Positions 2,683 through 10,866 of a DNA stretch of 10,866 nucleotides are shown piece after piece (the stretch's first letter is position 1; each line of letters starts with the position of its first letter). The stretch is from assembly GCA_937951455.1 (NCBI GenBank), contig CALFBU010000114.1, positions 1 through 10,866 on the forward strand, given 5' to 3'. The DNA comes from an uncultured Rhizobiaceae group bacterium (GTDB lineage Bacteria > Pseudomonadota > Alphaproteobacteria > Rhizobiales > Rhizobiaceae). The translations under genes and the position numbers were made by a program. The notes under the pieces are model-generated. The model saw nothing but the letters and a program-made list of their open reading frames with translations. It searched no databases and had not been told where the DNA came from.

Positions 2683-3609
2683 CTATCGCATGATTGCTGC
2701 AAGTGCTGCACTTGCCAGTCTTGCTTCTGCAGGGTCGGCGCGGCTTGTTAAAAGTACGGGGATTTTGCCTCCCAAGACAATGCCTGCGGCGCAGCCGCCA
2801 GTCATGTATACCAGCGATTTGAAAACTGCATTGCCCGAAACAATATCCGGCACGATGATCGCATCTGCTTTGCCAGCTACAGGGTCGTCACCCAGTCCTT
2901 TTGTATTAGCGGAATCTTGCGAGAGAATTAAATCCATCGCAAGCGGACCGCGAACATCGGATGTTGGAACATTTATCTGTGCCCATTCAGCAAGTTCCGC
3001 CGCTTCCATCGATGAAGGAATAGATGGAATGGCCGATTCCGTTGCTGATAAAATTGCAATTTTCGGGCGTTCAATACCTGTTTTGCGTGCCATTTCATCC
3101 ACGACGGTAACGGCTGCCTGACGGGTTTTCATATCTGGTGTTACGTTTACAGCTGCGTCTGAAATAATCATCGGTCGTTGCTCAACCGGATCGGTGATAT
3201 AAAAAACATGCACCAATCGATTTGATGTCCGAATGCCTGTATCTTTTTTGATAAGTGCGCCCATGAATTGATCTGTGTGGAGATTACCCTTCATGATAAC
3301 GTCAACTTCTCCACGGTTACCCAGCAGTGAACCTTCATAGGCTGCTTCTTCTTCACCGTTTGTGTCTACAATTCTAAAATCTCGAACATCCCATGATATA
3401 GCGCAAGCTTCTCGCTCAATGTCAGCTTTTTCGCCAACAAAAACTGGCTCCATGATACCTGCTTCTACAGCAGCCTTTGCAGCTTGCATGGGTAGAGGCG
3501 AGCCTGCGCGAACGATAGCGGTTTTTGCAGGTGAATTTTGCTTGGCTAATGTCAGAAGGTTTTCTGGGCAAACAGGGGCGTGTTTTGAAAGAAATGGACT
3601 GGCTGACAT
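2683..3609 (-). CDS. pta: Phosphate acetyltransferase of the Xsc pathway
   Basis: A 308-residue member of the phosphate acetyl/butyryltransferase (PTA/PTB) family, without the N-terminal DRTGG/AAA-like extension of the long enterobacterial Pta. It would convert acetyl phosphate plus CoA to acetyl-CoA plus phosphate in the cytoplasm. Family features include the N-terminal TAIVRAGSPLPMQAAKAA segment, VDVIMKGNLHTDQFMGALI near the middle, and the C-terminal block ADAIIVPDIVSGNAVFKSL followed by the GG-A-G-VLGGKIPVLLTSRAD ending. It lies directly downstream of xsc on the same strand, the standard order in taurine dissimilation loci, where it consumes the acetyl phosphate made by Xsc. An AAGGA Shine-Dalgarno sits 7 bases before the ATG. 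A hairpin with a T-rich tail separates it from xsc, so its expression may be lower than that of xsc. A phosphate butyryltransferase activity cannot be excluded by sequence alone, but the context favours acetyl. Confidence 0.9.
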   Translation of the reverse strand: MSASPFLSKHAPVCPENLLTLAKQNSPAKTAIVRAGSPLPMQAAKAAVEAGIMEPVFVGEKADIEREACAISWDVRDFRIVDTNGEEEAAYEGSLLGNRGEVDVIMKGNLHTDQFMGALIKKDTGIRTSNRLVHVFYITDPVEQRPMIISDAAVNVTPDMKTRQAAVTVVDEMARKTGIERPKIAILSATESAIPSIPSSMEAAELAEWAQINVPTSDVRGPLAMDLILSQDSANTKGLGDDPVAGKADAIIVPDIVSGNAVFKSLVYMTGGCAAGIVLGGKIPVLLTSRADPAEARLASAALAAIMR

Positions 3610-3729: not shown

Positions 3730-5499
3730 TTACTGAGGACGCATGTCTTTAGGATCGATGCCTGCAACTGAAACCGGCTTTTTCATCGCATCGCGACGGA
3801 AAGGCTCACCCAATTCCTGGTTCAGAACTACCTCAATCAAGGTTGTTTTGTTGTTCTTCATTTGACCTTCAACAGCTGCGTCTAGTGCTGATGTTAGTTC
3901 GTCCATTGTGGTAACCTGAACTCCTTCAAGGCCACAACCTTGTGCAACTTTAGCGTATTCAACGCCAAGATTTAGCTCTGTACCCACAAAGTTGTCTTCG
4001 AACCAAAGTGTTGTGTTACGCTTTTCAGCACCCCACTGGTAGTTACGGAAAACGATCATGGTGATTGGAGGCCAGTCATTACGACCACAAGCTGTAAGCT
4101 CGTTCATTGAGATACCGAATGCGCCATCGCCAGCAAAGCCAACAACCGGAACATCTGGACACGCAATTTTCGCGCCGAGGATAGCAGGAAGACCATATCC
4201 ACAGGGGCCAAATAGGCCAGGAGCAAGATATTTGCGGCCTTCGTCAAATGCAGGATAAGCATTACCAATGGCACAGTTGTTACCAATGTCAGAAGAAATA
4301 ATAGCTTCTCTTGGTAGTGCTTTTTGGATTGCTCTCCAAGCCATACGAGGTGACATACGGTCTGGCTCACGGTCACGTGCGCGTTCGTTCCAGTCTGTGC
4401 CTGGATCATCATCTTCGTGATCCATTGAGGTTAGTGTTTGTGCCCATGAAGATTTCGTTTTAGCAATTAATGCTTCACGGTCAGCGCGGCCATCATCACC
4501 TGCTGATGGTGATAGTTTTGCAAGAATGCTTTCTGCAACAGATTTAGCATCGCCTTGAATACCGACTGATACTTTCTTAGTAAGACCAATACGATCTGAG
4601 TTGATATCAACTTGGATTATTTTTGCATCTTTTGGCCAGTAATCAATGCCGTAACCCGGTAGTGTTGAGAATGGGTTTAGGCGTGTGCCGAGTGCCAAGA
4701 CTACGTCAGCTTTTTCTATAAGTTCCATCGCGGCTTTTGAACCGTTGTAACCAAGTGGACCAACGCCCATTGGGTGGTTGCCAGGGAATGCATCATTGTG
4801 CTGGTAACCACAACAAACTGGTGCAGATAGCTTTTCAGCCAAAGCAGCAGACGCTGGGATTGCATCACCGATGATGACGCCAGCGCCGTTAAGAATGACT
4901 GGGAATTTAGCTTCTGAAAGTAGAGCAGCTGCTTCTGAAATTGCAGTTTCACCACCTTGTGGAAGTTCAAGACGAACAATTTGTGGAAGCTCGATGTCGA
5001 TGACTTGTGTCCAGTAATCACGTGGAATGTTGATTTGTGCAGGAGCACAACCACGCCATGCTTTTTCGATCACACGGTTAAGAACTTCAGCCATACGGGA
5101 TGGGTCACGAACTTCTTCTTGGTAGCAAACCATGTCTTCAAACAATTTCATTTGTTCGATTTCTTGGAAGCCACCTTGGCCGATTGTTTTGTTTGCCGCT
5201 TGCGGTGTTACAAGTAGAAGCGGTGTGTGGTTCCAGTAAGCTGTTTTAACAGGTGTTACGAAGTTTGTAATGCCAGGGCCGTTTTGAGCAACCATCATGG
5301 ACATTTTGCCCGATGCGCGTGTGAAACCGTCAGCAATCATGCCGCCTGATGTTTCGTGGGCGCAATCCCAAAACTTAATGCCTGCTTGTGGGAACAAGTC
5401 AGAAATCGGCATCATGGCCGAACCAATAATACCAAAAGCATGCTCAATGCCGTGCATTTGCAATACTTTTACGAAAGCTTCTTCAGTCGTCATTTTCAT
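3730..5499 (-). CDS. xsc: Sulfoacetaldehyde acetyltransferase
   Basis: A thiamine-diphosphate enzyme of 589 residues that converts sulfoacetaldehyde plus phosphate to acetyl phosphate plus sulfite, the C–S bond-cleaving step of taurine dissimilation. The N-terminal Pyr domain has the catalytic Glu in the CAHE motif (Glu49) and the ADGFTRASGK and QNGPGITNFVTPVKTAYWNH stretches typical of Xsc. The PP domain carries the ThDP/Mg motif starting GDG at 457–459 and ending at Asn486, with the Xsc-like NYQWGAEKRN right after. The reading frame stays open 42 codons further upstream, but I chose the MKM start because an AGAGGAAA Shine-Dalgarno lies 7 bases before it, the length then fits the family, and the longer version would run through the putative TauR operator. 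The codons favour T- and A-ending forms such as GCT, GGT and GTT, consistent with high expression. It stands between tauR and pta, with a terminator after it. Confidence 0.96.
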   Translation of the reverse strand: MKMTTEEAFVKVLQMHGIEHAFGIIGSAMMPISDLFPQAGIKFWDCAHETSGGMIADGFTRASGKMSMMVAQNGPGITNFVTPVKTAYWNHTPLLLVTPQAANKTIGQGGFQEIEQMKLFEDMVCYQEEVRDPSRMAEVLNRVIEKAWRGCAPAQINIPRDYWTQVIDIELPQIVRLELPQGGETAISEAAALLSEAKFPVILNGAGVIIGDAIPASAALAEKLSAPVCCGYQHNDAFPGNHPMGVGPLGYNGSKAAMELIEKADVVLALGTRLNPFSTLPGYGIDYWPKDAKIIQVDINSDRIGLTKKVSVGIQGDAKSVAESILAKLSPSAGDDGRADREALIAKTKSSWAQTLTSMDHEDDDPGTDWNERARDREPDRMSPRMAWRAIQKALPREAIISSDIGNNCAIGNAYPAFDEGRKYLAPGLFGPCGYGLPAILGAKIACPDVPVVGFAGDGAFGISMNELTACGRNDWPPITMIVFRNYQWGAEKRNTTLWFEDNFVGTELNLGVEYAKVAQGCGLEGVQVTTMDELTSALDAAVEGQMKNNKTTLIEVVLNQELGEPFRRDAMKKPVSVAGIDPKDMRPQ

Positions 5500-5593: not shown

Positions 5594-5625
5594 GTAGGTC
5601 CAGATATGGGGTAGCTTGGAACCAA
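5594..5625 (-). promoter_or_regulatory. Putative TauR operator of xsc (paired direct repeats)
   Basis: On the minus strand, TTGGTTCCAA (5625–5616) is followed by CTGGACCTAC (5603–5594); the starts are 22 bp apart, about two helical turns. The second copy is nearly identical to the Rhodobacter capsulatus TauR repeat as I remember it (CTGGACYTAA). The pair lies about 95–125 bases upstream of the xsc ATG, immediately after the tauR stop codon. The same spacing and consensus recur in front of the ureohydrolase gene. The spacing is seen directly; TauR binding is inferred. Confidence 0.65.
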
Positions 5626-5641: not shown

Positions 5642-7108
5642 TTATGTAACATCCTTTATAGCGGATGCAATCCGGGAAATCCCTTCCGGTATCTTTTCAT
5701 TGGCTATTGAGGAATAAGCTATGCGAAAATAGTTTCTGGGAGGATTATCTGCGCCAAAGAATGCACTGCCGGGCTCAATGAGCACGCTTTTTTCAACAAG
5801 ATTTTCGGCTAGAATATTAGAGTTTAGATTTTTGGGACCTTTAATCCAGAAACTTGTTCCACCAAACTTTGCCGCCGTTGAATCGCTCAACCCATTTTTC
5901 TCTAGCGCCTCTAACATGGTCGCATGTCGTTCAGCGTATTTTTTCTTAAGTTTGCGCATTTGTGAGCTGTAATGACCAAGCGCCATAAAATAAGCTGCGG
6001 TACGCTGGCTGTGGCCTGGCGGGTGTCTAAACATAAGGTGCCTTAAGCGTCTGGCTTCTTCTATAAGGGAGTCTGGGCCGGCAAGATATCCAAGGCGTAA
6101 CCCGGGAAACAGGGATTTGGAAAAACTGCCGATGTAAACAACACGTGCTTTTTCATCCATGGATTTCAAGGCAGGTGAAGGTGGCGCCAGAAAATTCATC
6201 TCGAATTCATAGTCATCTTCAATGATTACAAAATCGTGCTTTTCTGCCATTTCCATTAGCTTCTTGCGACGATTGACAGTCATGGTTGCAGTTGTCGGGC
6301 ATTGGTGGCTTGGCGTCACAAAAACCACATCGCATTTTGCAAGCTTATCTTCGTCCAGTATCATGCCGCCTTCATCTACGTCGAAATATTCAATTTTTTC
6401 TGTGCGGTTTGTGACAATGTTTCGGATGTCTGGATAGCAGGGGTTTTCAATGCCCACCGTTGTGTCCTGACGTATCAGCAGCTCACCAACCAGATAGAGT
6501 GCATTTTGTGCGCCAAGCGTCACCAGAACATGTTCGGGTACTTTGTAAATACCACGCTGGGGCAGGCTGTGGCTTGCGATGTAGTTTACCAGCATTGGAT
6601 CATCATTATAACCAAAGTCACCTGCCAAGACGCCGAAATCCCTTGCTCCCAGCGCTTGCCTCGTACAATCGCGCCATTCCGAGTGTGAAAAGAGTTTGAA
6701 ATCTGCCTGGCCATAGACAAAGGGAAATTCATATTCGCGCCAATTGAGGGGCTTTCGGATGACCCTCAAGCCATCAGAATTGTTTCGGATACGATGTTGC
6801 CAGTCAATTTTCTCTGTGGGTTGTCGCGCGTTTTCCATAAACCCAAGCGGGTTGACGGGAGCGTCTTCATTAACGACGTAACCGGATCTTGCCTTTGGTG
6901 TTAAATAACCATCATCTGCCAGTGCCTGATATGCAAGTGTCACGGTGTTGCGCGCAACTTTAAGGTGTTTGGACAGACTTCTACTGGACGGCAGGCGTTC
7001 TCCTGGCTGCAACGCACGGCTCAGAATTGCGTTCACTACTTTCTCACGCAACTGCGCTTGCAGGCTTGCCGGTAATTTTGGGTCTAATTCAAATAGAATT
7101 TCTTTCAT
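5642..7108 (-). CDS. tauR: MocR-family transcriptional regulator TauR
   Basis: A 488-residue GntR/MocR regulator: a winged helix-turn-helix at about residues 10–80 (LQAQLREKVV, GERLPSSRSL, RNTVTLAYQALADDGYL) fused to a fold-type-I aminotransferase domain (about 125–488). The PLP-binding lysine is in the SFSKSLFPGLRLGY motif (Lys331). Other aminotransferase-like landmarks are the ENPCYPD and VTPSHQCPT segments and EDDYEFEMNF. In known relatives, taurine forms an external aldimine with PLP and switches the protein to activate taurine genes. Here it is placed between xsc and the ureohydrolase–tauABC operon, is transcribed away from the latter, and is followed by the xsc promoter. The ATG at 7108 gives the expected N-terminus, though the Shine-Dalgarno is weak (GGACTC). 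The putative operator in the 136-base gap to the ureohydrolase probably serves both directions, so autoregulation is likely. Confidence 0.92.
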   Translation of the reverse strand: MKEILFELDPKLPASLQAQLREKVVNAILSRALQPGERLPSSRSLSKHLKVARNTVTLAYQALADDGYLTPKARSGYVVNEDAPVNPLGFMENARQPTEKIDWQHRIRNNSDGLRVIRKPLNWREYEFPFVYGQADFKLFSHSEWRDCTRQALGARDFGVLAGDFGYNDDPMLVNYIASHSLPQRGIYKVPEHVLVTLGAQNALYLVGELLIRQDTTVGIENPCYPDIRNIVTNRTEKIEYFDVDEGGMILDEDKLAKCDVVFVTPSHQCPTTATMTVNRRKKLMEMAEKHDFVIIEDDYEFEMNFLAPPSPALKSMDEKARVVYIGSFSKSLFPGLRLGYLAGPDSLIEEARRLRHLMFRHPPGHSQRTAAYFMALGHYSSQMRKLKKKYAERHATMLEALEKNGLSDSTAAKFGGTSFWIKGPKNLNSNILAENLVEKSVLIEPGSAFFGADNPPRNYFRIAYSSIANEKIPEGISRIASAIKDVT

Positions 7109-7113
7109 GACTG

Positions 7114-7155
7114 ATGAGTCCAGTTGGCACCATATATTGAGACTTTTGGTTCTAT
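7114..7155. promoter_or_regulatory. Putative TauR operator between tauR and the ureohydrolase–tauABC operon
   Basis: Two direct repeats, TTGGCACCAT (7124–7133) and TTGGTTCTAT (7146–7155), start 22 bp apart, the same geometry as upstream of xsc. All four copies fit YTGGNNCYAN. Abutting the first copy on the opposite strand is CTGGACTCAT (7123–7114), a possible third half-site facing tauR. The pair lies upstream of any likely promoter for the plus-strand operon and could overlap the tauR promoter. I did not find convincing -35/-10 boxes for either direction. Confidence 0.6.
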
Positions 7156-7233
7156 TTGAAAAATGAGTAAGATTCTAGCCTTGCTTCATAAATTTCTTCG
7201 GCCTACGTTGTCAGCCGATGTACAAATGCCTTG

Positions 7234-7238
7234 GGAGG
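7234..7238 (+). promoter_or_regulatory. Ribosome-binding site that decides the ureohydrolase start
   Basis: A perfect GGAGG core lies 6 bases before a TTG codon at 7245. The in-frame ATG at 7218 has no such element and would bury this site inside the coding region, so the TTG is the better start. Confidence 0.7.
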
Positions 7239-7244
7239 GTGTTA

Positions 7245-8219
7245 TTGTCCGATAATCGTTTTCAGCCGGTTTCAGGTTTTGATTTACCCCGTTTCGCAGG
7301 CGTGCCAACGTTCATGCGTTTGCCGTTTGTGGAAGAAGGCAGTGAACTATACCCGCTAACTGAAATTGGTTTGATTGGTATTCCTTGGGATGGTGGCACG
7401 ACTAACCGTCCAGGCGCACGGCATGGCCCAAGACAAGTGCGTGATTTATCTACCATGATACGCGCAATGCATCCTGCTACAGGTACAAAACCATTCGAAC
7501 TTTGCAACTGTGCTGACCTAGGCGATGTTTCGCCAAATCCTGCGGGGCTTGAAGATACGCTAGAACGTGTGACAACGTATTATAAGCGCATTCAGAAAGA
7601 TGGTATCATTCCGCTTTCTGTTGGGGGTGATCATTTGACCAGCCTTCCTGTACTGCGAGGTCTTTCAAATGGCCGTGCGCTATCCATGATCCACTTCGAT
7701 GCGCATACGGATTTGTTTGAAGGGTATTTTAACGGTACAATGTATACGCATGGAACGCCTTTCCGTCGTGCCATTGAAGAGGGCATTCTTGATCCGACAA
7801 AAGTTGTTCAAATTGGCATTCGTGGCACCATGTATGATGGTGAAGATATTCAATGGGGCAGGGAACGCGGCGTCACGATTATAGACATCGATGAATGCAT
7901 GAAGCGTGGGTATGAAGATGTCATGGCTCAGGCGCGTGACATTGTGGGAGACACCGAAACCTACGTGAGCTTTGATATTGATTTTATTGATCCTGCATTT
8001 GCTCCGGGAACAGGTACGCCAGAAATTGGCGGTGTCGACACATGGACAGCACAACAATATGTGCGAGGTTTGTCGGGGGTAAATATAATAGGTGCAGATA
8101 TGGTGGAAGTTTCTCCACCATTTGATGCCTCTGGTAATACAGCTTGGGTTGGCGCTTCGATACTTTTTGAGCTACTGTGTAACCTTGCTGAATCACATGC
8201 TCGAAGAAAAGAAGCATAA
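7245..8219 (+). CDS. Agmatinase/guanidinoalkanoate-type ureohydrolase; possible taurocyamine amidinohydrolase
   Basis: A 324-residue arginase/agmatinase-superfamily enzyme, which hydrolyses a guanidino compound to an amine plus urea with a dinuclear Mn site. All six metal ligands are present: His130 in GGDH, Asp152, His154 and Asp156 in DAHTD, and Asp244 and Asp246 in SFDIDFIDP, followed by PGTGTPEIGG and the Glu288 of VEVSPPFD. The N-terminal FAGVPTFMRLP, TNRPGARHGPR and YTHGTPFRRA segments resemble the guanidinobutyrase/guanidinopropionase side of the family more than arginase. It is the first gene of the operon with tauABC, 80 bases upstream of tauA, and lies under a repeat pair shared with xsc. 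From this context I infer that the natural substrate may be guanidinoethanesulfonate (taurocyamine), giving taurine and urea. Agmatine, guanidinobutyrate, guanidinopropionate, guanidinoacetate or guanidine remain possible. The start is TTG with a perfect Shine-Dalgarno; an ATG at 7218 would add 9 residues. Confidence 0.9.
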   Translation: MSDNRFQPVSGFDLPRFAGVPTFMRLPFVEEGSELYPLTEIGLIGIPWDGGTTNRPGARHGPRQVRDLSTMIRAMHPATGTKPFELCNCADLGDVSPNPAGLEDTLERVTTYYKRIQKDGIIPLSVGGDHLTSLPVLRGLSNGRALSMIHFDAHTDLFEGYFNGTMYTHGTPFRRAIEEGILDPTKVVQIGIRGTMYDGEDIQWGRERGVTIIDIDECMKRGYEDVMAQARDIVGDTETYVSFDIDFIDPAFAPGTGTPEIGGVDTWTAQQYVRGLSGVNIIGADMVEVSPPFDASGNTAWVGASILFELLCNLAESHARRKEA

Positions 8220-8299: not shown

Positions 8300-9301
8300 A
8301 TGAAAACTCTAAAAACAATGGTAGCAGCACTTGCAGCATCTTCAGCGATGTTTGTAGCAACTGCTCCTGCTAATGCACTAGACGAACTAACTGTTGCTTA
8401 CTTCCTGGAATGGCCAACACCAAACCAGTTCGCTCAAGCTAACAAAATCTACGAAGAAGAGCTTGGCGTAAAAGTAAACTGGGTATCTTTCGATGCTGGT
8501 ACTGCAATGTCAGCTGCTATGGCTTCTGGCGATGTGCACATCTCGTTTTCACAAGGTGTAACACCATTCTTGGTTGCAACTGCTGCTGGTCAAGACCTTC
8601 AGGTTGTTGATATTGCGGTTTCTTACTCAGACAACGACAACTGTGTTGTACGTTCTGAGCTTGAAATCACAAAAGACAATGTTGCTGATCTTAAGGGCAA
8701 GAAAGTTGCTGTGCCGCTCGGTACTGCTGCTCACTCCGGTTTCCTAGCTCAAATGAAGCATTTCGGCATTGCTGAATCTGATTTGACAATCGTTGATATG
8801 GCGCCATCTGACTCAGCTGCTGCATTCTCACAGCCAAACACAGACCTTGCAATGGCTTGTGGTTGGGGTGGTTCGCTTCGCACTATGAAAGAGCACGGCA
8901 ACCCAATCATTTCTGGTGCTGAAAAAGAAGCTGTTGTTGGTAAAGTGTACGATGTAACATCTATCCCAACATCATTTGGTGAAGAGAACCCAGAGCTTCT
9001 AGCAAAGTTCCTTAAAGTGACTGCTGACATGAATGCAGAATATGCAAAAGACAGCGCTCCAATGATGGAATCAATTGCTAAGGCTGCTGGCATGGACGAT
9101 GCTGGTACTAAAGCTGTTATCGGAACTTTCGTATTCCCAACAGTTGAAGAGCAGCTTTCTGATGCATGGATGGGTGGTTTTGTTGCCAAGAACCTGGCTG
9201 AAAGTGCAAAGTCACTTGAAGAAAGCGGCAAAATCAAAGCGCTTGGCGACTATAGCGCACTTGTTAATGCAAGCTACCTTGAAGCAGCTTCAAAAATGTA
9301 A
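8300..9301 (+). CDS. tauA: Taurine ABC transporter, periplasmic substrate-binding protein
   Basis: A 333-residue periplasmic binding protein of the SsuA/TauA (NMT1/THI5-like) type. It has a classical signal peptide (Lys2 and Lys5, hydrophobic 7–22, cleavage after the ANA at 24–26) and no lipobox Cys, so it should be free in the periplasm. The mature start LTVAYFLEWPTPNQFA, then VKVNWVSFDAGTAMSAAMASGDVHIS and GKKVAVPLGTAAHSGF, match the alphaproteobacterial TauA group. It would deliver taurine, or a related aminoethanesulfonate, to TauBC. An AGGGAGAG Shine-Dalgarno lies just before the ATG; the frame is open 13 codons further upstream but without a ribosome-binding site. The codons are strongly biased to GCT, GGT, GTT and CTT, as in xsc, fitting the high level needed for a binding protein. 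A hairpin after the gene may set its excess over tauB and tauC. Confidence 0.93.
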   Translation: MKTLKTMVAALAASSAMFVATAPANALDELTVAYFLEWPTPNQFAQANKIYEEELGVKVNWVSFDAGTAMSAAMASGDVHISFSQGVTPFLVATAAGQDLQVVDIAVSYSDNDNCVVRSELEITKDNVADLKGKKVAVPLGTAAHSGFLAQMKHFGIAESDLTIVDMAPSDSAAAFSQPNTDLAMACGWGGSLRTMKEHGNPIISGAEKEAVVGKVYDVTSIPTSFGEENPELLAKFLKVTADMNAEYAKDSAPMMESIAKAAGMDDAGTKAVIGTFVFPTVEEQLSDAWMGGFVAKNLAESAKSLEESGKIKALGDYSALVNASYLEAASKM

Positions 9302-9386: not shown

Positions 9387-10190
9387 ATGAGCGGACTCAT
9401 TATCGACGATGTTTCTATGACCTTTGAATTGCCGGATGGTGGCAAAGTCGAAGCACTAAAGAACATCAATTTGAATATCAAAGAAGGTGAGTTGCTGTCA
9501 GTCTTGGGGCCTTCAGGTTGCGGAAAAACAACACTTCTAAATATCTGCGCCGGATTCCTTGCTCAAAGTGATGGGAAACTTTCCCTAAATGGTGATTTGG
9601 TTACTGGTCCAAGCCCAAAACGTGGCATGGTCTTTCAAAAAGGTGCTCTTTTCGAGTGGATGTCTGTGCGTAAAAACGTATCTTTTGGCCCCGAACTTAA
9701 AGGGATGCCAAAGGCAGAGATGGACGAAATCGTAGACCATCTGCTTGACGTTGTCGGTCTTCAGGATTTCAAAGAAAAGGCCATCTATGAACTTTCCGGC
9801 GGTATGCAGCAACGTGTGGCCCTTGCCCGTTGTTTGGCAAATGAGCCTGATGTTATCTTGATGGATGAGCCGCTGGGTGCGCTTGACGCGTTGACGCGTG
9901 AAAAAATGCAGGGTCTTGTGCTTAAGCTGTGGAAAGAGACTGGTAAAACAATCATCTTGATTACGCACTCGGTTGAAGAAGCACTGCTACTTGGAGAGCG
10001 CCTAATTGTTATGGCACCGCGCCCTGGACGCATTCACAAAGAATATAATCTTCCTTTTGCTGAGATGGGCGTTGGCGCTGATCTTCGTGAAGTAAAGAAA
10101 CACAAAAAATTCGGCACAACCCGCGATGAAATTCTTACCATGATTTGGGATATGGAAGAAGAAATCATGGGCAGAACCGAAAGCGCGTAG
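9387..10190 (+). CDS. tauB: Taurine ABC transporter, ATP-binding protein
   Basis: A 267-residue ABC ATPase of the nitrate/sulfonate/taurine (SsuB/TauB/NrtD) subfamily that powers import at the cytoplasmic face. Visible motifs in order: Walker A GPSGCGKTT (41–49), the Q-loop region (MVFQKGALFEW), signature LSGGMQQRVALAR (from 136), Walker B VILMDEPLGALD (Asp160, Glu161) and the switch His194 in ITHSVEEAL. The C-terminal MAPRPGRIHKEYNLPF is common in this subfamily. It is the second transport gene after tauA, with a hairpin between, and tauC follows after 10 bases, so tauB and tauC are translated from one message. The substrate assignment comes from the neighbours (tauA, xsc, tauR); the ATPase alone would not separate taurine from other sulfonates. 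Confidence 0.93.
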   Translation: MSGLIIDDVSMTFELPDGGKVEALKNINLNIKEGELLSVLGPSGCGKTTLLNICAGFLAQSDGKLSLNGDLVTGPSPKRGMVFQKGALFEWMSVRKNVSFGPELKGMPKAEMDEIVDHLLDVVGLQDFKEKAIYELSGGMQQRVALARCLANEPDVILMDEPLGALDALTREKMQGLVLKLWKETGKTIILITHSVEEALLLGERLIVMAPRPGRIHKEYNLPFAEMGVGADLREVKKHKKFGTTRDEILTMIWDMEEEIMGRTESA

Positions 10191-10200
10191 GGGAAGAGAC

Positions 10201-10866
10201 ATGTTTTTAACAAGTGAAGATTTTATTTCTGAATTTGGTTTTGCGATTACGACATCTCTATGGATGATCGTAGGCATTGCCGCAATTTTTGCCATATATC
10301 TTATATTCAGTGCAGGATTTGCTTTTCTTTACGGACTTTATGCTAAGGGCAAGCAAGCCAAGGGCTTTGGGTCTCTAAAAACAGTTACCTTTGGTGATGA
10401 AAGTGCTGTGGTTGCCAACCGTGTCGCTTCTGTTCTAGGGGTTTTAACGTTGTTTTTCTTGTGGGGACTGGCAACGGAATCCAAGTTGCTACCCTTCAGC
10501 TTGCCCGGTCCATTCAACGGCACCTCTCAGTTTGAATATACAGCCAAAAATGCAGCTGGAGAAACTGATAAGGCTACCGTTACTTTTCGCGTATCAAAGC
10601 AGGGTGAAGAAGTTGAAAAACTTGAGGCACCTGCATCGTCAGAAGGTTTTGCCAAAGATGACGTCGCCATGTTGTTAGAGCGCCGTTCTAAAATTTTGAG
10701 ACCGCAAAACAACGATGAGGGTGGCAAGGATGACGGTTATACCATAACCGAGATTAATGGTCAGCCCATCAAAGCAGATGATGTTGTAACGGTCGATGGC
10801 GCTGATGTGCTGTTCACCAAACGCGGCAGTTTCTCCATTCGTCCTGCTGAAGGCATGACCATGGAA
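10201..10866 (+). CDS. tauC: Probable taurine ABC transporter permease TauC, N-terminal part with unusual extension
   Basis: An open frame of 222 codons with no stop runs off the right edge. It begins with ATG after a GGGGAAGAG ribosome-binding site, 10 bases past tauB. I call it tauC from this position. What is visible is not the usual start of a 6-helix permease of about 275 residues: a long hydrophobic segment (about 20–47), a second one (about 75–92), and then from about residue 95 onward a hydrophilic region with no membrane segment. Inside it, residues 103–131 (GPFNGTSQFEYTAKN, then GETDKATVTFRV) look like an Ig/cadherin-like beta strand pair. Residues 180–222 look like a second small beta-rich piece. 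The permease (BPD) domain would have to lie beyond the window. This may be the extended TauC type of Alphaproteobacteria, or a separate membrane protein inserted before tauC. Confidence 0.65.
   Translation, partial: MFLTSEDFISEFGFAITTSLWMIVGIAAIFAIYLIFSAGFAFLYGLYAKGKQAKGFGSLKTVTFGDESAVVANRVASVLGVLTLFFLWGLATESKLLPFSLPGPFNGTSQFEYTAKNAAGETDKATVTFRVSKQGEEVEKLEAPASSEGFAKDDVAMLLERRSKILRPQNNDEGGKDDGYTITEINGQPIKADDVVTVDGADVLFTKRGSFSIRPAEGMTME

Follow-up and report, generated by a model that had tools for sequence, protein, structure and literature searches.

Two Pseudomonas aeruginosa enzymes of solved structure, the 3-guanidinopropionase GpuA (EC 3.5.3.17, PDB 3NIP/3NIQ) and the guanidinobutyrase GbuA (PDB 3NIO), are the nearest described systems to the ureohydrolase reported here. 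The gpu genes have a LysR regulator, and enzymes of EC 3.5.3.17 act slowly on taurocyamine. A third comparison is offered by the human enzyme GDAH (AGMAT), which is mitochondrial and without operon. According to the available text of PMC9772407, GDAH is nearer to GbuA (60.2%) than to GpuA (45.2%) and is a broad enzyme: taurocyamine is the best substrate of its R105 form, which splits it at three times the rate seen with guanidinobutyrate and leaves agmatine intact, and hypotaurocyamine and guanidinopropanesulfonate are also taken. Its Km exceeds 50 mM for taurocyamine, guanidinobutyrate and guanidinopropionate. The same text reports that the R72 position of GbuA caps the active site of the neighbouring subunit. 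Taurocyamine hydrolysis is thus already known as a chemistry, and the doubt voiced in the initial annotation, as to whether such an enzyme had been described before, was justified. A Candida guanidinobutyrase also takes 3-guanidinopropionate (PMC10833137, available part).

On the side of taurine, the TauR regulon of Alphaproteobacteria comprises a MocR-type regulator, a direct-repeat operator, tauABC, xsc, pta and bisC/hybA/dmsC-type genes, and in Rhodobacter capsulatus the sites bound by TauR are CTGGACYTAA direct repeats (Suvorova and Rodionov 2016, PMC5320631). In the portion of that article available, the TauR section names no ureohydrolase, and the main text brings up an agmatinase just once, in connection with GabR2 regulons. 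IsfD/IsfE clusters serve the use of taurine nitrogen, as the accessible part of PMC6616044 has it. Taurocyamine and its kinase occur in annelids, trematodes and oomycetes, and peanut worms form a phosphagen from hypotaurocyamine (PMC6429109, available part). No bacterial taurocyamine operon was found among the matches listed by a full-text literature search that covers few subscription papers and is weak evidence, and the literature searched gave no bacterial recycling route for taurocyamine.

Gene layout of the window

The stretch analysed, hereafter the window, is 10,866 nucleotides long (C114:1-10866) and comes from a genome that is 72% complete. Pta-like, xsc and tauR-like genes lie on its minus strand, and the ureohydrolase, tauA-, tauB- and tauC-like genes follow on the plus strand. 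The ureohydrolase thus heads tauABC-like genes and diverges from tauR and xsc, a layout that the initial annotation had read correctly. The features are as follows:

2683..3609, minus strand: pta-like phosphate acyltransferase (PF01515; no NCBIfam cut-off reached)
3730..5499, minus strand: xsc, sulfoacetaldehyde acetyltransferase (TIGR03457, 944 bits)
5596..5625, minus strand: direct repeat TTGGTTCC-N14-CTGGACCT, candidate TauR operator before xsc (pattern scan)
5642..7108, minus strand: tauR-like MocR regulator, GntR domain and aminotransferase-like domain (near the ureohydrolase throughout the clade)
7124..7153, plus strand: direct repeat TTGGCACC-N14-TTGGTTCT, 22-bp register, candidate TauR operator before the ureohydrolase (pattern scan; published consensus)
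7245..8219, plus strand: ureohydrolase of the GpuA/GbuA group, candidate taurocyamine (guanidinoethanesulfonate) amidinohydrolase (ORF, PF00491, ligands, alignment)
8300..9301, plus strand: tauA-like substrate-binding protein (best solved relative the taurine-binding protein 6SSY, 100 bits; below the TIGR01729 cut-off)
9387..10190, plus strand: tauB-like ABC ATPase (NF008421, 274 bits against a cut-off of 357)
10201..10866, plus strand: tauC-like permease, 5' part only (continues past the window end; full-length homologue in locus L005)

Xsc passes its model clearly (TIGR03457, 944 against a cut-off of 676). For the MocR protein, only PdxR exceeds its cut-off (351/320) among 25 NCBIfam matches listed; its MocR architecture and its position beside xsc bear on TauR orthology. 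No name of a polyamine enzyme was found above cut-off among the eight window proteins scanned. As Rfam gave no match in the window at the gathering threshold, the idea of a guanidine hydrolase linked to a guanidine riboswitch or other RNA control was dropped. We also observed that TauC is long: the L005 protein begins to match the TauC model at residue 222 (model position 48), and the TauC part in the window (10201-10866; L005 counterpart 12963-14303) has a marginal Big_9 match.

Sequence features of the ureohydrolase

The ureohydrolase frame runs from a TTG start at 7245 to a stop at 8219 (324 aa) and is preceded by a Shine-Dalgarno motif, GGGAGG (7233-7238), that ends six bases ahead of the TTG. 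Pfam Arginase PF00491 matches residues 40-311 (2.5e-87). All six metal ligands that had been claimed are present by alignment (H; D-x-H-x-D; D-x-D), as H130, D152, H154, D156, D244 and D246. Five of these columns are invariant in a 133-row alignment and D156 deviates once, in clade member L005, where a V points to a broken enzyme or a sequencing error.

The nearest solved relatives are GpuA (400 bits) and then GbuA (316 bits), with identities in our own alignment of 55% over 316 columns and 45%, respectively. R73 of the window enzyme corresponds to R72 of GbuA and R69 of GpuA. Y161 corresponds to tyrosine 157 of GpuA, a GpuA-type feature whose role was reportedly described by Lee and colleagues in 2011, whereas GbuA has M161 at this place. 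By way of GbuA R72, human GDAH also has arginine at the R73 position (PMC9772407, available text). R73 is found in 112/112 and Y161 in 111/112 more distant rows. From sequence, these two residues mark the protein as a predicted guanidino-acid enzyme; being near-universal among the rows, they therefore do not discriminate between a sulfonate and a carboxylate substrate.

Database names pull in several directions. The window enzyme passes the TIGR01230 agmatinase equivalog cut-off (189.8 against 174.3), a model that may not separate GpuA, and misses that of the agmatinase subfamily NF002564 (262 against 302). NCBI names several of the homologues listed agmatinase, and JGI names five of the 120 listed guanidinopropionase. 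In a quick tree, GpuA groups with other rows, outside a 111-row group that holds the window.

A clade of ten loci with taurine genes

We compared 141 loci (the window, 80 and 60 others), 130 of which are distinct after removal of 11 duplicates. The 80 are the best 80 of 214 relatives, and the 60 are made up of 39 of 58 and 21 of 48 places besides the window. The closest relatives by ureohydrolase, among these best 80 of 214, are from 'Rhizobiaceae group' MAGs. A tree of the 130 ureohydrolases and three references places the window in a ten-row clade (window, L004-L009, L012, L144, L145), with an SH-aLRT support of 96, and a bootstrap of 96 and SH-aLRT of 90 in a 40-row tree. On the latter set, a state count gave 4 changes on 39 rows, with a label set that is hand-selected and biased.

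Taurine-degradation genes surround the ureohydrolase in all ten clade rows, in two architectures: tauR|ureohydrolase-tauABC-degT-soe-like and tauR|aminotransferase-ureohydrolase-soe-like. A tauR-like gene adjoins the ureohydrolase in 10/10 rows, with one gene between in L012, and a tauA-like gene does so in 9/10. Xsc was found in seven rows; in L006 and L007 the flank on the xsc side is shorter than 2.1 kb. In L144, tauB and tauC are not recognisable beside tauA, and xsc is on another contig. The second architecture is that of L012, where xsc-tauR on the minus strand face a class III aminotransferase, the ureohydrolase and soe-like genes on the plus strand, without tauABC; the enzyme is therefore tied to taurine breakdown and not to one transporter. 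The L012 aminotransferase passes the AptA omega-aminotransferase model (582/500). Since AptA uses beta-alanine, this context also fits 3-guanidinopropionate.

Five residues are constant in the clade and seldom seen elsewhere. All ten clade rows have G at position 160, where GpuA has R and 8/8 of the nearest outside rows have E; D216 is constant in the clade and E in those eight; W267 is found in 10/10 against 0/8. D265 (10/10) and T268 (constant) are shared with 4/8 and 6/8 of the nearest outside rows, respectively.

In the eight nearest outside rows (L010, L011, L013-L018), two of which (L010 and L016) have short flanks, no tau markers were found. Five of them (L011, L013, L014, L017, L018) adjoin oligopeptide-type ABC genes, by look, and the wider subfamily neighbours an SLC13-type transporter, aldehyde dehydrogenase or other ABC transporters. 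The initial annotation had asked whether close orthologues keep tau or xsc genes as neighbours: within the window's clade they do so in every row, while outside it other genes are mostly found.

Some clusters carry methyl-handling genes. FAD-GcvT-type genes lie in taurine clusters at L144:14413-16833, L145:14770-18907, L240, L248 and L251, accompanied in L144 and L145 by an MTTB-type methyltransferase and a LysR-type gene; the FAD-GcvT gene was scored in L144 and the methyltransferase-type gene in L145. Such genes, whose products may act on N-methylated taurines, are missing from the ORF lists of L005 and L012. Elsewhere in the tree, a gene of one sequence cluster (MTTB family, scored in L044) lies directly upstream of the ureohydrolase in L041, L042, L044, L052 and L075, possibly for a methylated guanidino substrate.

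Operator-like repeats

The repeat pair said to precede both the ureohydrolase and xsc is real: the pattern YTGGNHCY-N14-YTGGNHCY has exactly two occurrences in the window, at 7124-7153 (plus) and 5596-5625 (minus), so that TauR-type spaced direct repeats stand before both genes. In 300 mononucleotide shuffles its chance was 0.013 per window, for a pattern derived from these two sites themselves, and relatives are a fairer test. In 8/10 clade members, window included, the 600 bp ahead of the ureohydrolase contain the strict repeat. In L012 it precedes the aminotransferase gene that itself precedes the ureohydrolase, and L144 has a loose form only. It was not found upstream of the ureohydrolase in the eight nearest outside rows, L010 having just 247 bp there. 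Over all 141 loci and 600 bp, the strict form before the ureohydrolase is that of the window, L004-L009, L145 and the duplicates L143 and L147; L168-L170 have it on the other strand, and L144 and L164 have the loose form. The total is 46 strict matches in 2.45 Mb, duplicates counted.

The repeat also precedes xsc in L004, L005, L008, L009, L012 and L145, and it is found in the gap from degT to the soe-like genes in L005 and L007, in L144 on the opposite strand and in L009 on both strands. With CTGGACCTA before xsc, to be compared with the consensus CTGGACYTAA, the window repeats resemble the published TauR operator. The ureohydrolase thus looks, from these motifs, co-regulated with the taurine-degradation cluster, and control would be exerted by TauR itself. 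In L005 and L007, an extra small frame of about 110 codons lies between the repeat and the ureohydrolase, in the tauR-ureohydrolase gap.

Co-occurrence with xsc

Of 297 family genomes, among them the window's own, the enzyme occurs in 57 (E <= 1e-110) and xsc in 78 (E <= 1e-200), and 30 genomes have both. The two genes lie at most 10 kb apart in 9 of these 30 genomes, against an expectation, with kinship disregarded, of about 0.005 per genome. Five of the nine belong to the clade (G000, the window's own, G292, G010, G184 and G004) and the others are G279, G215, G269 and G153. A binomial estimate of about 1e-14 (20 kb in an assumed 4.3 Mb) treats the genomes as unrelated though they are kin, and independent linkage events number about three. 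G242, a genome of the same genus that is 94% complete, has xsc and lacks the enzyme at E <= 1e-110. In a phylum-wide sample, the enzyme was near none of 20 xsc loci (20 of 27 other places), at least three of which are on short contigs or close to contig ends.

Relatives outside the clade

Three loci outside the clade, L168-L170, place a relative of the window enzyme in what looks like another sulfonate setting. There, polyamine-type ABC genes (by look) follow the relative, and its neighbours include a MocR gene, a class III aminotransferase and, by look and with no NCBIfam match, a TauE/IsfE-like gene; a sulfoacetaldehyde-reductase-like gene is adjacent, with the TauR-like repeat in between. 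The best solved match of this reductase is 2NWQ, which is 'probable' only, and the second-best is the sulfoacetaldehyde reductase 6IXJ (284 bits); its best NCBIfam name, YdfG, is below the cut-off. In the sister rows L164-L166 these genes are replaced by tauR and xsc, and a frame that we take to be acetate-kinase-like (motif clear in L165 and L166) runs towards the enzyme's unit. As the enzyme unit converges on the unit beside tauR-xsc, it is therefore a neighbour on a different transcript.

Several other loci were considered and set aside. In the SAR116-type loci L025, L028 and L048, xsc is 6.5-9 kb from the relative with intervening genes, which amounts to proximity only; in L025 and L028, the relative follows an aldehyde dehydrogenase. 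L050, with xsc and a tauR-like gene 8-10 kb away, is weak, and L062 was rejected as one unit with its adjacent IsfD-like set because a LysR-type gene lies in between. An arginase-family gene near TauABC in L236 (30% identity, beside polyamine-type ABC genes by look) is a different system.

TauABC and the question of import

By best match, the window TauABC proteins are apparently diverged relatives of the E. coli-type taurine transporter. They miss the curated cut-offs for taurine transporters (TauA 161.7/304, TauB 273.7/357, TauC of L005 227/342). Window-type TauABC (TauA 54-84% identical) is found without this ureohydrolase in 20/20 other loci, which are 20 of 30 places outside the clade, six of them contigs of 5.9 to 11 kb. 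Since taurine clusters commonly include it, the hydrolase seems to have joined a taurine system that was already there, in which TauABC does not have to transport taurocyamine. Identity of TauA drops to 52% in clade member L144, where that of the ureohydrolase is still 85%. The claim that taurocyamine is imported by TauABC is thus unsupported; of the proposed taurocyamine-hydrolase operon, the enzyme part is likely (10/10 clade rows, L012, shared operator-like repeat) and the import part is unproven. Taurocyamine would enter by TauABC or by another importer. In nine tree rows, genes for an SsuA-type binding protein and ABC proteins come directly after the ureohydrolase and are perhaps an importer unit of its own.

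Discussion

We propose that a metal-dependent guanidino-acid hydrolase would have been recruited into the TauR-controlled taurine-dissimilation regulon. The window enzyme would split taurocyamine (2-guanidinoethanesulfonate), or a very close guanidino-sulfonate, into taurine and urea; a transaminase, DegT-type in the window's genome and class III in L012, would convert taurine to sulfoacetaldehyde; Xsc would turn this into acetyl phosphate and sulfite, and a Pta-like enzyme would yield acetyl-CoA. Sulfite would be removed by a SoeABC-like oxidoreductase and urea nitrogen released by urease. The genes for these steps are in the same genome. Contig C156 ends in a DegT-type aminotransferase gene (5' end cut) followed by molybdopterin, Fe-S and DmsC-type subunits, which we take to be SoeABC-like (their NCBIfam names are generic and below cut-off). 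This order is the same as after tauC in L005, L007 and L009, and C156 is likely the continuation of the window operon. Urease is in the same genome, as is a separate agmatinase (the C131 homologue, NF002564 456 against a cut-off of 302).

Two side observations concern these gene families. A DegT/DnrJ/EryC1-type aminotransferase is repeatedly found in taurine clusters, at the place expected of a class III taurine transaminase (L005:14387-15586, PF01041; own C156, L276:5355-6425; L239, L241, L244, L247, L248, L251) and is a candidate unrelated taurine transaminase. A third arginase-family gene of the window's genome (C100, L278:7538-8551), beside polyamine-type ABC genes by look, passes TIGR01230 and misses NF002564.

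That the enzyme is a TauR-regulon hydrolase of taurocyamine or a very close guanidino-sulfonate, feeding Xsc, is in our view probable. This reading is favoured by the superfamily domain, the metal ligands and the nearest solved relatives; by the clade linkage, the two architectures and the repeats before ureohydrolase, xsc and, in four relatives, soe-like genes; by the closeness of enzyme and xsc in 9 of 30 family genomes; by the degT, soe-like, urease and separate agmatinase genes of the genome; by the equivalence of R73 to GbuA R72, with the arginine form of GDAH preferring taurocyamine (PMC9772407, available text); and by the L168-L170 relative, which sits with a sulfoacetaldehyde-reductase-like gene and a TauR-like repeat. 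It is weakened by the eight nearest outside rows without tau markers and the 0/20 phylum-wide xsc loci, by the passing of TIGR01230, the AptA-type aminotransferase of L012 and the lack of recognisable tauB and tauC beside tauA in L144, and by window-type TauABC being common without the enzyme (20/20 examined).

A general guanidino-carboxylic-acid hydrolase, acting mainly on 3-guanidinopropionate or 4-guanidinobutyrate with taurocyamine as a side substrate, is rather unlikely. Such an enzyme would have been placed in the taurine regulon because its products, of beta-alanine or GABA type, would share the transaminases, and the AptA-type enzyme of L012 would suit them. The 55% identity to GpuA, the GpuA-type Y161 and the JGI names agree with it, as do the wider subfamily's neighbours (aldehyde dehydrogenase, an SLC13-type transporter or other ABC transporters) and the breadth of human GDAH and of the Candida guanidinobutyrase (PMC9772407, PMC10833137, available parts). 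However, Xsc and sulfite-oxidase-like genes are sensible for a sulfonate only, the operator-like repeat is common to xsc, and taurine genes are present in 10/10 clade members. The window also differs from the GpuA system by its tauR and taurine genes, in contrast to gpu genes.

We consider it improbable that the enzyme naturally acts on a different guanidino-sulfonate or guanidino-sulfinate (hypotaurocyamine, guanidinopropanesulfonate or an N-methylated compound), even though the first two are taken by GDAH (PMC9772407, available text), peanut worms use hypotaurocyamine as a phosphagen precursor (PMC6429109, available part), and clade clusters contain methyltransferase-type (L145) and FAD-GcvT (L144) genes. 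The substrate of Xsc, sulfoacetaldehyde, is a C2 compound, which argues against guanidinopropanesulfonate, and the methyl-handling genes are missing from the L005 and L012 ORF lists.

Taurocyamine inhibits taurine transport in animals. An enzyme that heads importer genes and has a repeat in common with xsc might thus be protective, destroying taurocyamine that would block the taurine importer or taurine enzymes. We hold this to be very unlikely; urease is available for use of the urea, though this does not separate feeding from protection. Most improbable is an agmatinase, or a passenger without sulfonate role: TIGR01230 and several NCBI names point that way, but the genome has a separate, higher-scoring agmatinase, R73 matches the residue that goes with acid substrates in GbuA and GDAH, linkage and repeat are conserved in the clade, and no polyamine enzyme is named above cut-off among the eight window proteins scanned.

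Returning to the hydrolysis of taurocyamine into taurine and urea, a wider proposal, which is possible and which we put forward tentatively, is that the Rhizobiaceae group would have a dedicated pathway to salvage taurocyamine, from which animals and protists make a phosphagen, as a source of carbon, nitrogen and sulfur, through a hydrolase added to the TauR regulon. In other genera, a related hydrolase would have separately joined an isethionate-type branch (IsfD-like) or been set beside tauR-xsc, so that the link would have arisen more than once. If true, this would supply a bacterial recycling step for taurocyamine, a sulfonate would join the known guanidino nutrients of bacteria, and the 'agmatinase' label in taurine clusters would become a testable prediction.
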